Positions 14,400 through 19,724 of a DNA stretch of 21,171 bases are shown here, piece after piece. The notes under the pieces were generated by a model that worked only from the letters and a program-made list of their open reading frames with translations, searched no databases and was not told the DNA's origin. The position numbers were made by a program, and so were the translations under genes. Source of the stretch: a virus. How positions within the stretch are numbered: position 1 is the stretch's first letter; each line of letters starts with the position of its first letter. Where the stretch lies: positions 1-21,171 of the IMG/VR virus record IMGVR_UViG_3300004807_000157, one strand, 5' to 3'.

Positions 14400-16769
14400 T
14401 TACTGGCTAGCTTGTAATATTCTTTGGCTAAAGTCTTTGGTGTCTCGCATGTGTTCGATCAATTCATCTTGCTTGCCCATTTGAGCAATATGCATGTCTT
14501 TAAATTGATTTAAGAAATCGTCAAAAACGTTGTTTACCATGTTATCGGCTATGGTCCTTGTTTCTTTTGCAGTGTCTTTAGCGTTTGGCATTGATAGTTT
14601 TTCAGTCACTTCGCGCAAGGCCGCAGTGGCTTTGTTTAATTCGGCTGCTGCTGTTGATAGCCCTGTTATGTTGACCGGTATACTCTTACCGTCAGGCAAC
14701 GGCACATGCGCTTCGTTGATACCGCCCTCGCTCACCATGGCCAAAACACCTTTGGGATTGGTTGTGGTACTGATACCGCCGTCAGCAAAACCCAACATTG
14801 TACTAGCAGATCCAGCAGCTATAGTAGCAACACCGCCAGTCATCATACTGGTACCAGCAGCTGCTAGTGGAACCCCAACTGCAGCACCAACACCGGTAAA
14901 TGACAATAAAGCTCCTACAGCAGCCAATACTCCACCGAGTGCAGTAATACCTATACCAACATCTTCAACGTCCTCGCCTATGCCTTTTAAGAAATCAAGC
15001 GGACCTTTGGTGTTGTTAAGGCCGCCTATAATGGTATCCATCGAGGCCAAGATTGCTTCGGCTGCCTTAGCAAATCCCAAAATTTGCGGTGTTAGTTTTT
15101 CCTGTAGTGCTATTCTTAAATCTTGTGCTGTTTTCTCAACATCCATTATCGCCGAATGAAATCCGCTATTGATCTTGGCCGTAGCTTCTACTGCATCTGT
15201 AGCTGTTTTTAAATTTTGTTGTGTTAATTGAAATTGCGCTTGACCTAATTCGTTGGCACCTTTGGCAAAGTTATTCAACGAGTCAACTCCCATAATGGCT
15301 GCGGCACTGATTGAAGTAGCCAATTGTCCGTTGTTTTTATCAAAGTCTTGAGTGGCTCGTGCAAATCCATCGTTCAATGACTGTATGCTACTACCCGGAG
15401 TTGCTAGTGCAGTTGCAAAATCTTGTGCAGCACCCACTTGCCCGTACAGGTTGGCATTAAGGTTAGTAACTATTCCGTTCATTACTGTGGCCTGCATGGC
15501 AGCTTCTTGCTGGTCGGCCGACAACATGGCCATGGCTTTATGGGCACGATCTATCAAGCCAGGATCGTTATTTTGCTTGGCCAAGTCACGTAACTTTTTG
15601 TCAAACGCATAAGCAGTGGCTCGTTTTTTGGCTTCTTCTTCGCGCGACTTTGCATCAGCGCCCATGATGTCGGCCACAATTTTCATGTTCTTGCCCATCT
15701 CCAGCGTGGCCTGTGCCATCTGTGCATTGGTTGCAGTCCCGCCCGATCGTTTCAAGTTGGCTGTTTGTTGTGCCACCAATGCAGCTTGTTCTTCAAAACC
15801 AATACCGAGATTCATCAACTCTCGTTGTAGCGAGTTGCCGTTTTTGCTGGTCTGTGTTGCTAGATTGCTAGTAACTCCCGAAACAATTTTTGCTGCACCA
15901 CTAACTGTATAACCCGATTCGGCCAGTGCCGCCGAATTGTTTTTGAGCACGTTTGCAAATTGATCCACAGTGAGTCCAGCAGCGCCCGAATACTTTCGCA
16001 AATCTTCCATGCCACGTGCAAACAGTGCGCCAGCAGCAGTTGAATCGTTGTAGGCCTTGATGGTTTTTTCTACTTCTTTGGCCAGTACTTCAATTCCAAA
16101 TTTGGCCAACTTGGCAGTTTGTTCGGCGGCCATGCCCATGACTGGTCCAAGAATTGCCAAGGCAGCCCCAATGCCTTTTGCATACATACTTGGCAATGTC
16201 ATTAGTGCTTGTCCAGCAGTGCCTGCGGCCTGACCCAGGGCTACAGTGGTTTGCGCCTCCATTTCGATTTGAGTTGCCATTAGGCCACTGGCCAGTTCTA
16301 TTCCCGATGCACCGTTTTGCAGTCCCTTGACAAACGCCATGGAACCTTGCAGTCCGGTCTGGGCCACATTCCACATGGCCTTGCCCAATTTGACAGTGGC
16401 CGTAATTGCATCGCCCTTGGCCGCGTTCTCCCAGAGCTGATTGCGTTTTTTAATTAAATCGTTCTTTTTTTCTTGATCTATTTCGTTTTTGATTCTGTCG
16501 TCAAGTTCTTCAAGATCTTCGGCTAACGCACTGAGTTGTGCCGGAGCTTCGCTCAACATCTTGGTAAAGGTGCTGGTTACCGAATTGGCCTTTTTCAACG
16601 ATTTTATTTGAGCATCGACCTGTTTGGTCAATTTCTCCATGTCGTCAGAGTATCTTCCAAGTCGTTCACTGTCTTTGGATGTGATAGATGCGCCCAGGCC
16701 CCCAGTGCCTTTGCTCTGCTGCTTTTGCAGTTCAATCAGTTGCGCCAAGAGTTCTTCGGTAGTAGGCAT
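14400..16769 (-). CDS. Tail tape measure protein (789 aa)
   Basis: Sets tail length and lines the tail tube before injection. Evidence: long Ala-rich helical chain; charged coiled-coil N-terminus (MPTTEELLAQLIELQKQQSK, then repeated Lys/Glu helices to about residue 115); hydrophobic segments near residues 190-220 and 605-660 (GIGITALGGVLAAVGALLSF and following); and the tape-measure C-terminal signature SEGGINEAHVPLPDGKSIPV with HVPLPDG at 688-694, closely parallel to the 'GEAGPEAVIPL..G' motif of many tape measure proteins. It is longer than T4 gp29 (590) and does not visibly resemble it, so the gp29 symbol is not used. AGGA lies 8 bases before the ATG. It sits beside the portal gene, unlike in T4, and opposite the gp26-like gene. 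Confidence 0.88.
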   Translation of the reverse strand: MPTTEELLAQLIELQKQQSKGTGGLGASITSKDSERLGRYSDDMEKLTKQVDAQIKSLKKANSVTSTFTKMLSEAPAQLSALAEDLEELDDRIKNEIDQEKKNDLIKKRNQLWENAAKGDAITATVKLGKAMWNVAQTGLQGSMAFVKGLQNGASGIELASGLMATQIEMEAQTTVALGQAAGTAGQALMTLPSMYAKGIGAALAILGPVMGMAAEQTAKLAKFGIEVLAKEVEKTIKAYNDSTAAGALFARGMEDLRKYSGAAGLTVDQFANVLKNNSAALAESGYTVSGAAKIVSGVTSNLATQTSKNGNSLQRELMNLGIGFEEQAALVAQQTANLKRSGGTATNAQMAQATLEMGKNMKIVADIMGADAKSREEEAKKRATAYAFDKKLRDLAKQNNDPGLIDRAHKAMAMLSADQQEAAMQATVMNGIVTNLNANLYGQVGAAQDFATALATPGSSIQSLNDGFARATQDFDKNNGQLATSISAAAIMGVDSLNNFAKGANELGQAQFQLTQQNLKTATDAVEATAKINSGFHSAIMDVEKTAQDLRIALQEKLTPQILGFAKAAEAILASMDTIIGGLNNTKGPLDFLKGIGEDVEDVGIGITALGGVLAAVGALLSFTGVGAAVGVPLAAAGTSMMTGGVATIAAGSASTMLGFADGGISTTTNPKGVLAMVSEGGINEAHVPLPDGKSIPVNITGLSTAAAELNKATAALREVTEKLSMPNAKDTAKETRTIADNMVNNVFDDFLNQFKDMHIAQMGKQDELIEHMRDTKDFSQRILQASQ

Positions 16770-16835: not shown

Positions 16836-17696
16836 ATGGTACCTGAACAGCCCGCAAACCCACTTGCCAAATTTTTTCGACAACCAGCAGTTTATATCAA
16901 ATTACCCAGTAACGGACGCTATTGGGAAGATGACGCACTAGAAATTCCAGTCACTGGCGAAATTGGGATTTATCCCATGACCACCAAAGACGAACTGGCA
17001 CTAAAAACTCCCGATGCACTCATGAACGGGCAAGGTGTAGTGGATGTTATTCACAGTTGCGTTCCTGCTATCAAGAACGCATGGAAAATGCCCAGCGTTG
17101 ATGTGGATGCTGTACTGATTGCAATACGTATTGCCAGCTACGGCGAGTTCATGGAAGTTACCAGCAAATGTCCGCATTGCAGTGAAGAAAACGAATACGA
17201 AGTTGACCTCAAGCCCATTTTGGCCAGTGTCACAGTGCCCGACTATCAAGAGTTACTGACTTACAAAAGCATGAAGATCAAGCTCAAACCGCAACAGTAT
17301 TTCTCGGTGAATCAAGCAAATCGTGTGCGATTTGAAGAAGAGCGCTTGGGCAATATCTTGGCCAATATGGACAATGTCGAGCCCGAAGCCAAGGCCAAAC
17401 TGCTTAAAGAAAGCATGACTCGATTGCTCAAAGTGGGATTTGACATGGTGGCCGAAAGTGTCGACTACATCGAGATCGACGACGGCAGTCGAATATCCAA
17501 CAAACTGCACCTAATAGAATTTTTTGAAAACGTTGAATCGTCACTGGTACAGGCCATACAGGATCGACTGGTAAAAATGCTAGAATCGGCTAGACTCAAA
17601 CCCACTAGTGTACAATGCGGCAACAGTGAATGTGTTAAGCCATTTGACCTTGCTTTGGAATTTGATCAAGCAAATTTTTTCGGAAAAGGCTTTTGA
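16836..17696 (+). CDS. 26: Baseplate hub protein, gp26-like, with Cys pairs (286 aa)
   Basis: Likely belongs to the T4 baseplate (gp26-type) family of hub or hub-assembly proteins. The N-terminus has FRQPAVYIKLPSNGRYWEDD and IYPMTTKDELALKTPDALMN, both familiar from T4-like aquatic phages. Two cysteine pairs are visible: CPHC at 112-115 and C-x4-C at 261-266 (CGNSEC), which could bind one zinc as a split ribbon. The chain ends in a LEFDQANFFGKGF motif. It is longer than T4 gp26 (208). AGGA precedes the ATG by 7 bases and a rightward TATAAATA box lies 35 bases upstream. Its stop overlaps the start of the next gene. Family assignment is from memory of the motifs; the precise hub role is inference. 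Confidence 0.8.
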   Translation: MVPEQPANPLAKFFRQPAVYIKLPSNGRYWEDDALEIPVTGEIGIYPMTTKDELALKTPDALMNGQGVVDVIHSCVPAIKNAWKMPSVDVDAVLIAIRIASYGEFMEVTSKCPHCSEENEYEVDLKPILASVTVPDYQELLTYKSMKIKLKPQQYFSVNQANRVRFEEERLGNILANMDNVEPEAKAKLLKESMTRLLKVGFDMVAESVDYIEIDDGSRISNKLHLIEFFENVESSLVQAIQDRLVKMLESARLKPTSVQCGNSECVKPFDLALEFDQANFFGKGF

Positions 17697-17914
17697 CCCT
17701 TCGAGATAACGACGAAGTTATCAAATTCGTAGATAGATACGAAAAAGAGTCAAAAGCCATAAAGCACGAGTTATTAAAAATGTGTTGGTACATGCGAGGT
17801 GGATTAACCTACGACGAGGCCATGAATCTCAGCAGTAGTGAAAAACTCATCATCGGAGACATTATAAAAAGCAACTTGGAAGCAACTAAAAAATCAGGTA
17901 TGCCATTCTTTTAA
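17693..17914 (+). CDS. Small tail/baseplate assembly-type protein, TTG start (73 aa)
   Basis: The frame begins with TTG at 17693-17695, which overlaps the TGA of the gp26-like gene (TTGA), with GGAAAAGG just upstream; the next in-frame ATG is at residue 30, inside a conserved-looking core. Translational coupling to the upstream gene is therefore likely. The core reads LLKMCWYMRGGLTYDEAMNL, then SSSEKLIIGDIIKSNLEATK and KSGMPFF at the end. From memory, small proteins with 'Y-M-RGG-(T/S)-EA--L' and a KSG-PFF end follow the gp26-like gene in aquatic T4-like phages and have been treated as tail or baseplate assembly factors. Function is unproven. Paired hairpins and a T-rich tract follow the stop. 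Confidence 0.8.
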   Translation: MTLRDNDEVIKFVDRYEKESKAIKHELLKMCWYMRGGLTYDEAMNLSSSEKLIIGDIIKSNLEATKKSGMPFF

Positions 17915-17972
17915 GATGTACTACGTACATCTGTTCTTTCGCTTATCAGCTCAGAACATGTTTTCTTTTTCT
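17914..17972 (+). terminator. Tandem hairpins with T tract ending the rightward transcript
   Basis: Directly at the stop codon is an 8-bp stem AGATGTAC / GTACATCT with a 3-base loop (17914-17932). It is followed by TGTTCT / AGAACA (17932-17937, 17953-17958) with a short inner stem GCT/AGC (CGCTTATCAGC region), then TGTTTTCTTTTTCT at 17959-17972. The second hairpin with its T tract looks like an intrinsic terminator for the plus-strand pair. Confidence 0.65.
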
Positions 17973-17974
17973 AA

Positions 17975-18370
17975 ATAACAACAATAATGATTTACAACGA
18001 AGTTGTACTAGTTTCATCCAGACTAATCAGTCACACTTTGCCCGCTAAGGGCAAAAAGTGATTTCATCCGAGCGGCACAATCACTTAGCGTTAGAGCATT
18101 ACAGAGGCGGTTGTCCGGTACCTCGAGCTCCGTCTTTATACAACGGCAGCTTGCATAACATACGCTAACACGTTATACAAACCTGTGCTATCACTAGCAC
18201 GTCATTTAGCCTTTAAAATCTTTTGTTCAAACAGCAAAACCAGTTCTATGAAGGCATATCTGATCCACGTCCGGTTAAGGATAGTTGCTGAGTGCTCTGC
18301 ACGGCGCAGAGTCTTCCGTCCCTCTTTTTATCAAGTTGTCTTGGGCACATGATGTTAACCTGTGCGAGTC
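17975..18370 (-). ncRNA. Candidate structured RNA downstream of the GIY-YIG gene
   Basis: This interval has no frame of 60 codons on either strand and is more GC-balanced than its surroundings (57 of 120 bases G or C at 18061-18180). Helices seen, in plus coordinates: 18295-18300 with 18306-18311; 18185-18190 with 18195-18200, whose loop is GTGA (a GNRA type) only on the minus strand; 18127-18133 with 18143-18150 (one bulge); 18104-18110 with 18115-18117 plus 18121-18124; 18034-18043 with 18049-18060; 17993-17998 with 18002-18007. A 7-bp long-range helix (18085-18091 with 18162-18168) encloses two of them as a multibranch junction, and 18273-18278 can pair with 18355-18360. The minus-strand end is a hairpin then a T-rich tract. 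It may be a separate RNA or a 3' UTR. No known RNA family was recognised. Confidence 0.42.
17980..18007 (-). terminator. Weak terminator-like hairpin on the minus strand
   Basis: Perfect 6-bp stem TACAAC / GTTGTA with a 3-base loop (17993-18007), followed leftward on the minus strand by an AT-rich tract with T-rich runs (ATTATTGTTGTTATTT). It could end the transcript of the nuclease gene and the candidate RNA, but the tract is interrupted by A and G. Confidence 0.4.
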
Positions 18371-18805
18371 TTAACCGTGTAATTTGTTTAGTATGTGGGA
18401 GCCATGGACACGAACAGATATCTGTCCGTTATAATAATCTGTAGATTCTAATACTCTATTTGTGAATTGTTCACGTGCTTCAATGTAACTACATTCGGCC
18501 TTGCTCTTGCAATAGTAGAGTATTTCTCTGGTAAAGTTTTCGGTGCCATGAGTTTGAACGTCTTTGTTGAGTTGGTCGTTAGAGCCATAATATGTTTGCC
18601 AATCAGAATCTACTTTTGATCGTATCTTCTTCTTTTTCTTGTTGCCGTTCTTGAGTTTTACTGTTTTATAAGTGGTTTTTGCGAATTTCGCTAGTTTTTT
18701 GCCTATGTACTTTTTGCCAGATAGATTATTTGTAATAAGATACACAAACCCCACACAGTCTTCGGGTAATTCCTCAACAGGTAGGTTTTGATATATCCAT
18801 TGCAT
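18371..18805 (-). CDS. GIY-YIG nuclease-like protein (144 aa)
   Basis: Residues 19-36 (GFVYLITNNLSGKKYIGKK) hold the paired VYL and YIG strands of the GIY-YIG nuclease fold. A very basic stretch follows (KNGNKKKKKIRSK, about 52-64), then DSDWQTYYGSNDQLNKDVQT and TREILYYCKSKAECSYIEAR, where Glu109 could be the metal-binding glutamate. The Arg normally found about eight to ten residues after YIG is absent (Lys there), with Arg62 the nearest candidate. From memory, the 'YIGKK ... SDW..YYGS' type is common in cyanophages and T4-like phages as free-standing homing-type or DNA-processing nucleases. Start is ATG at 18805, 16 bases after the radical SAM stop, with only a weak ribosome site, so it probably shares that transcript. 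It is followed by the structured interval at 17975-18370. Activity is unproven. Confidence 0.85.
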   Translation of the reverse strand: MQWIYQNLPVEELPEDCVGFVYLITNNLSGKKYIGKKLAKFAKTTYKTVKLKNGNKKKKKIRSKVDSDWQTYYGSNDQLNKDVQTHGTENFTREILYYCKSKAECSYIEAREQFTNRVLESTDYYNGQISVRVHGSHILNKLHG

Positions 18806-18821
18806 ATAACATAATTATGAC

Positions 18822-19724
18822 TCAAGGAGCTAATTCGATATTTTTCTGCCATTGTGATGTGAAATTGGTCTGTGAGTTTTCTGTAGAACAAATCGCTCGA
18901 CAAACGGGATTGGGTGTAGTTGAGTGCCATGATGCTTGTATTTTGTTGAAATCTGTATGAAAATTGCTTTGTTTTTCGCCTAACCAGCAGCAAGGATGTA
19001 TATTTCCCTGTGCGTCTATGTAAATGCTTTTCTCTCTAATAGCGTGACAATCGATCACGGTACTTTGTATTTCTCGTCTAGCCCAGCCTACGGGATATTC
19101 TAATCCATTGGCCAATGGGCGTTTGCTTACTTTAGCTCTAAACCATCGAAATCCCATGTCACGGGCCAATTGTTCGCAGTCGTTGACTTGGTGCCGGTTG
19201 TGATTGTAAACCAACATATCCCAGTGAGCATTGCCTCCGGCTTTGATAAATGCAGCAGCATTACTTATGACACGGTGCCAGTCTACATTGCGTCTATAAA
19301 CATGATTGGTATCTGCCAAACCGTCTATGCTAAAAACAACATAATCTTGTGGTTGACACAATCTTTTTGCCAATTGCTCCCACCACTCGGTGTCACGAAT
19401 GCCGCCGTTAGTGTTCATGCCCAGTACAATATTGTTGTTGACGCTTCTAAAATAATCATATAACTTTAAAGTACTTGCACTGGCTGCTGGATCGCCATAA
19501 TTACCGCACATGAACATTTTGTCAAGTTGCCGAATAACAGATTCAGGCAATATACGTTGAATGTCGTCGACTGTGAGCGAATGTTTTAAATCTTTGTCAA
19601 ACTCGGGATCGGTTTCTCGGGCACACAGCGGACATGCAGCTTGACAAACGTCGGTTGGCTCCAAGTGCAACACACGCACTTGCTCAATTGATATCGACGT
19701 CGGCGTTGTAACTTGTATATCCAT
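18822..19724 (-). CDS. Radical SAM protein with SPASM/twitch-like C-terminus (300 aa)
   Basis: Carries the radical SAM cluster motif C-x3-C-x2-C at Cys27, Cys31, Cys34 (EPTDVCQAACPLC), a GNYGDPAAS glycine segment near 74-82 that fits the SAM-binding region, and a VVFSIDGLADTNHVYRRNVD core typical of the family. The C-terminal part has extra cysteines: C226, then after 18 residues C245-C246 (IYIDAQGNIHPCCWLG), then C275-x3-C279, the pattern of a second iron-sulfur cluster in SPASM/twitch radical SAM enzymes. Such enzymes often modify peptides, but others act on nucleotides or small molecules; no substrate is visible here. The ATG lies 41 bases inside the end of gp46, in another frame, with an AAAGA leader. 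Radical SAM genes near replication genes occur in aquatic T4-like phages. Enzyme class is firm; reaction unknown. Confidence 0.92.
   Translation of the reverse strand: MDIQVTTPTSISIEQVRVLHLEPTDVCQAACPLCARETDPEFDKDLKHSLTVDDIQRILPESVIRQLDKMFMCGNYGDPAASASTLKLYDYFRSVNNNIVLGMNTNGGIRDTEWWEQLAKRLCQPQDYVVFSIDGLADTNHVYRRNVDWHRVISNAAAFIKAGGNAHWDMLVYNHNRHQVNDCEQLARDMGFRWFRAKVSKRPLANGLEYPVGWARREIQSTVIDCHAIREKSIYIDAQGNIHPCCWLGEKQSNFHTDFNKIQASWHSTTPNPVCRAICSTENSQTNFTSQWQKNIELAP

Follow-up and report, generated by a model that had tools for sequence, protein, structure and literature searches.

Polynucleobacter-1 RNA (Rfam RF01718) is among the candidate structured RNAs of Weinberg et al. (2010, PMC2864571), the only paper that we found by the name or accession of this RNA. 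GOLLD, ROOL and OLE are large ornate RNAs (PMC12286853). In phage T4, the nuclease gene segB lies between tRNA genes and targets the tRNA intergenic region (PMC2988022); it amplifies a tRNA anti-defence segment (PMC13096335). IscB and TnpB systems, which need an HNH or RuvC nuclease, consist of a nuclease ORF followed on the same strand by a structured RNA.

The RNA at the end of the plus-strand block

The window, i.e. the whole stretch of 21,171 nucleotides that was analysed, is a virus contig from a T4-like phage. It encodes a portal, a prohead protease and a major head protein, as well as a baseplate hub protein of the T4 type and an SbcC-like protein. At the RNA locus a plus-strand block (16836-17914) converges on minus-strand SbcC-like, radical SAM and GIY-YIG genes. 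The radical SAM protein gene (18822-19724), between the SbcC-like gene and the nuclease, was detected in only some relatives. Adjoining the portal gene is a 789-aa ORF (14400-16769), for which neither Pfam nor PHROG gave a match at E 0.001. The locus has the following parts:

18371-18805, minus strand: gene of a SegE-type GIY-YIG endonuclease of 144 aa, adjoining the RNA on its upstream side (Pfam SegE_GIY-YIG, E 8.8e-34)
18229-18370, minus strand: 5' domain of the RNA, Rfam RF01718 Polynucleobacter-1 (cmscan), with helices P1-P4 and P4b
17997-18228, minus strand: 3' two thirds of the RNA, with P5, P6, P8, two pseudoknots, P9 and the twin motifs; absent from Rfam
17914-17932, no strand assigned: hairpin at the convergent end, terminator-like when scored on the plus strand

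A sequence-only reading of this DNA had proposed a possible undescribed structured RNA that immediately follows the GIY-YIG gene on the minus strand. That this stretch is non-coding and structured is borne out by the Rfam match, by conservation among homologues and by covariation. The word undescribed applies to the 3' part, which is not in Rfam, but not to the 5' 40%, which is RF01718. The match at 18229-18370 reaches 86.1 bits against a cut-off of 37 and covers positions 1-141 of the 141 in the model. Thus the RNA is real and partly known. RF01718 was the sole Rfam match at gathering cut-offs, so that the Infernal search suggested by that reading identified 141 nt and left the rest of the RNA unmatched. 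Cow-rumen-2 and snoR114, which scored far under the cut-off, were rejected.

Similarity to homologues in BLAST extends to about 18010, past the 141-nt model, and an HMM of about 365 positions matched nearly all homologues from end to end. Together with the covariation, this supports the proposal of one conserved structured RNA. It comprises about 365 nt on the minus strand, from 18370 to about 18007, and two further hairpins then follow. The conserved RNA was found in more than 100 distinct contigs, and its 3' two thirds are conserved, with covariation in their helices, in more than 100 contigs. Abundances of contigs and loci from scans are lower bounds; the contigs, from IMG/VR, are fragmentary, and near-duplicates were thinned out by sequence. 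The hairpin at 17914-17932 is probably the 3' limit of the transcript. It does score as a terminator, as the sequence-only reading had it, but on the plus strand, whereas the RNA is on the minus strand.

The 5' 141 nt of this RNA are a full-length member of RF01718, well over the cut-off, but conservation spans about 2.5 times that length and takes in two pseudoknots and the twin motifs. Moreover, the loci reported here are in phage contigs, and none of 393 sampled Burkholderiaceae genomes matched. In cultured phages, four blastn queries with the RNA gave no match and a fifth matched Melnitz phages only in the nuclease coding sequence. One partial RNA match (L214, 3-181) is on a contig binned into a Bacteroidetes MAG; it is probably phage DNA, and the genome of this MAG had no RF01718 match. 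With GOLLD, ROOL and OLE the RNA shares that it is large and structured and of unknown function, but it is smaller, has a twin concerted motif and has no Rfam match to them. What was a 141-nt orphan Rfam motif is now a large, defined RNA of phages, and its anatomy can be put to the test.

As with segB, a GIY-YIG homing-type nuclease gene is found beside a phage RNA gene; however, the RNA here is not a tRNA and the nuclease is SegE-type. The product of 18371-18805 has the GIY-YIG domain that a free-standing homing endonuclease would have, and a weak PDB match to 3r3p, a 'mobile intron protein' (E 0.019). PHROG 447 and many GenBank records label this family NAD synthetase, which is probably a misannotation because Pfam gives a SegE-type GIY-YIG. 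The likeness to IscB and TnpB lies in a nuclease ORF followed by a structured RNA on one strand, but the neighbour here belongs to SegE_GIY-YIG or PDDEXK_15. Guide-RNA families such as HEARO gave no Rfam match at gathering cut-offs and the group I intron core gave none in the RNA locus; with neither a guide RNA nor a self-splicing intron from Rfam and with a SegE-type nuclease, the suggestion of a ribozyme or an IscB/TnpB-like guide was not upheld.

Fold and covariation

The elements of the fold that are referred to below, all on the minus strand, are:

18287-18291, minus strand: P4 5' strand, UCAGC (columns 83-87/130-134; 4 of 5 pairs with E 0-0.22)
18231-18235, minus strand: P4 3' strand, GCUGU, covarying with the 5' strand
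18163-18166, minus strand: pseudoknot 2, loop side, AGCG of GUUAGCGUAU (4 pairs, 99.6% paired, 16 double-changed cells)
18087-18090, minus strand: pseudoknot 2, partner, CGCU of UAACGCUA (helix 11)
18141-18143, minus strand: pseudoknot 1, UUG (helix 12; 3 pairs, 97.6% paired, 47 double-changed cells)
18111-18113, minus strand: pseudoknot 1, CAA (helix 12)
18127-18130, minus strand: P8 5' strand, GAGC (helix 13; 62 double-changed cells, 99.2% paired)
18094-18097, minus strand: P8 3' strand, GCUC (helix 13)
18036-18056, minus strand: hairpin P9, CUUUGCCC/GGGCAAAG, between the twin motifs (from sequences and fold; outside the 48-pair scoring)
18063-18072, minus strand: twin motif copy 1, CUC + GGAUGAA, 7-mer identical to copy 2
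18013-18022, minus strand: twin motif copy 2, UCU + GGAUGAA, 7-mer identical to copy 1

In an alignment of 60 sequences, the 48 pairs of the model, which form 14 helices including the two pseudoknots, were paired in 95.6% of the cells. Double-sided changes occurred in 42 of the 48 pairs. The compensatory changes across homologues for which the sequence-only reading had called are thus present: 523 double changes were counted, compared with 131 after shuffling. The covariation score was 0.541 versus 0.200 when shuffled and 0.04-0.11 when the structure was slid, although the slid control favours the proposed structure because this was drawn from the same sequence family. Under a tree-aware null that keeps column rates many pairs had E<0.1, an independent agreement with the fold. 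Helix P7 (GCCG/CGG) and P9 were left out of the 48-pair scoring because of alignment column shifts.

The folding energy was unremarkable (z -1.43; 7 of 100 shuffles equally good). The comparison with shuffles therefore did not bear out the structure, which is nonetheless backed by covariation; since the minimum folding energy by itself is unremarkable, the covariation is the evidence for structure. One long-range helix of 7 bp had been read from the sequence; the data show the long-range helix P4, modelled with 5 pairs, together with the two pseudoknots.

The twin motif and the interchangeable cores

The covariation screen also gave column pairs at constant spacing that carry the same base and not complementary bases. 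They are two copies of one motif, CUC-xxAUxAx and UCU-xxAUxAx, which form short direct repeats about 50 bases apart. The 7-mers of the two copies were identical in 138 of 139 parsed loci (shuffle mean 24.6, maximum 37), all of which had been found via the nuclease or another part of the RNA and never via the motif. This parse contained eleven 7-mers, besides one parse artefact; a slightly wider one gave identity in 138 of 140 loci. The four variable columns of the motif agree between the copies in 60 of 60 sequences, and the adjoining trinucleotide (CUC versus UCU) is always different. As identical variable columns abut fixed differences, the two copies change in concert. In 3.6 Mb, the twin signature occurred 261 times with these RNAs, compared with 0-2 times for five control trinucleotide pairs. 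The RF01718 part of the RNA was already catalogued, whereas the concerted twin motif in its two downstream copies is new here. In single sequences the copies are predicted to be located in hairpin loops, a placement that is without covariation support.

The motif is not confined to one type of RNA. At one locus (L006) the nuclease is about 91% identical to that of the window, but a different RNA 5' core, type II, lies between nuclease and terminator, and this RNA ends in the same 3' twin motif. The type II core was present in at least 73 contig stretches; GIY-YIG is upstream in 67 and the other 6 have too little upstream DNA. Up to E 3, Rfam gave no match for a type II representative. Scans with the motif and a scan for a further core gave more loci, many with a GGAACGA core, and twelve such loci had no Rfam match; the labels III to V for RNA sub-types are informal. 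Because the motif scans selected on particular 7-mers, only the core-based sets test for concert. In the RNAs chosen by the GGAACGA core the 7-mers were identical in 92 of 94 (shuffle mean 50.6, maximum 59), and in the 2 exceptions the copies differ by one base.

The twin-motif loci indicate further RNA cores that current annotation misses. We tentatively suggest, at somewhat short of an even chance, that RF01718 covers part of one RNA within a so far unrecognised superfamily of modular phage RNAs. These would be about 365-450 nt long, would combine exchangeable 5' cores with a common 3' module whose twin motif co-evolves with one trans partner, and would be paired with an interchangeable nuclease.

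When two short elements stay identical to each other through many changes and in different cores, this is a rare sign of selection for a partner common to both. No column of the RNA co-varies with the twin motif in the covariation screen, so the partner is probably outside the RNA; a search for complements within its own RNA likewise gave none. In ten long contigs neither the motif nor its complement was enriched in the phage's own genome, and the concerted 7-mer, taken as a guide, had no enriched match there. An upstream excess of complements of the own 7-mer was traced largely to conserved SbcC coding sequence and codons. A link between column 142 of the GIY-YIG protein and one motif position turned out to be a C-terminal length difference between clades; beyond this clade signal, the residues of the protein show no link to the motif. 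A host molecule could be the partner.

Gene order and possible roles

Among the 338 non-redundant RNA loci listed by pattern scans with enough upstream DNA, GIY-YIG is directly upstream of the RNA in 317, PD-(D/E)XK in 16 and neither in 5, i.e. a nuclease in 98.5%. PD-(D/E)XK (Pfam PDDEXK_15) takes the place of GIY-YIG in L112, L390, L417, L423, L438, L473, L483, L500 and others. The two were never found together in the loci examined. SbcC is upstream in 145 of 151 loci and gp26/g73 downstream in 166 of 168. The single exception in setting is L417, which has a different neighbourhood in which no SbcC was found. The link to the nuclease that had been proposed from the sequence thus stands as gene order, but it is inseparable from the fixed synteny, which may explain the pairing. 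We treat it as unproven, since SbcC and gp26 are equally constant and the GIY-YIG residues do not track the motif.

Our preferred interpretation, for which we see about an even chance on the strength of sequence comparison, is that this is a free-standing phage RNA that acts in trans and offers one recognition element, in two copies, to a partner evolving along with it. A non-coding RNA of about 365 conserved nt, perhaps 455 nt with the 3' hairpins, would be transcribed after the nuclease gene. It folds compactly, with two pseudoknots; its 5' core can be swapped, and its 3' part has the 7-nt element xxAUxAx twice around a GC-rich hairpin. Both copies would bind the same kind of partner, either a nucleic acid complementary to them or a protein, perhaps a dimer, with sequence specificity. 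The specificity of this shared partner would differ between phages, and for this reason the copies would have to change together. The RNA might sequester or regulate the partner during infection. If the partner is found, it would reveal the role of a large RNA in uncultured T4-like phages of a common aquatic class.

The reading in which the nuclease is a homing or recombination enzyme in a fixed slot, not acting with the RNA, is one that we hold to be as probable as not; it is about the link to the nuclease and does not conflict with a trans-acting RNA. Homing genes usually spread patchily, which the nearly complete occupancy (333 of 338) does not resemble, and in L417 a nuclease still stands beside the RNA in a different neighbourhood. 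In its favour, the order SbcC - nuclease - RNA - gp26 hardly varies, the nuclease and the RNA core are each exchanged independently, the GIY-YIG protein does not follow the motif, other phages have PD-(D/E)XK relatives with the annotation Holliday junction resolvase, and segB beside tRNA genes is a precedent (PMC2988022, PMC13096335). If instead the RNA guided, activated or restrained the adjoining nuclease in a ribonucleoprotein, its nearly constant position downstream of two unrelated nuclease folds would be accounted for, as would the replacement of GIY-YIG by PD-(D/E)XK (ten long GIY-YIG contigs had no PD-(D/E)XK match). This is unlikely, as the same RNA type occurs with either fold, fixed synteny explains the pairing, the RNA of L186 has neither nuclease, nine inspected cultured-phage regions with GIY-YIG relatives have no twin motif nearby, and no target was found in the own genome.

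Sponge RNAs of the CsrB/RsmZ type carry repeated short recognition sites in one RNA. Two identical, fast-changing sites would also suit a counter-defence decoy that mimics the target of a host RNA-binding protein or an RNA-cleaving defence, and phage tRNA amplification against a tRNA-cleaving defence offers a precedent (PMC13096335). We regard this as rather unlikely, because the motif matches no recognised target sequence and, with only two copies, does not keep the CsrA-type GGA core (AGA, GCA, GAA and ACA occur). The toggling of the motif could be the product of an unusual DNA-level process. However, that the copies are repeats at the DNA level that bind a protein or serve recombination, and that gene conversion keeps them identical, is improbable: they are indeed short direct repeats, but fixed CUC/UCU differences abut the concerted positions and the remainder of the element covaries as RNA. 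Most improbable is a cis-acting 3' UTR element of the nuclease mRNA. The RNA does usually begin 5-90 nt after the nuclease stop codon, but in L417 it cannot be a 3' UTR because RNA and nuclease are on opposite strands, in L186 there is no nuclease, and in L045, L023 and L077 a gene of about 0.8-1 kb intervenes.

Of these inserted genes, two carry a GCS(Y/F)TAG-type motif like that of SGNH hydrolases; Pfam gave no match above cut-off for two that were compared with it.
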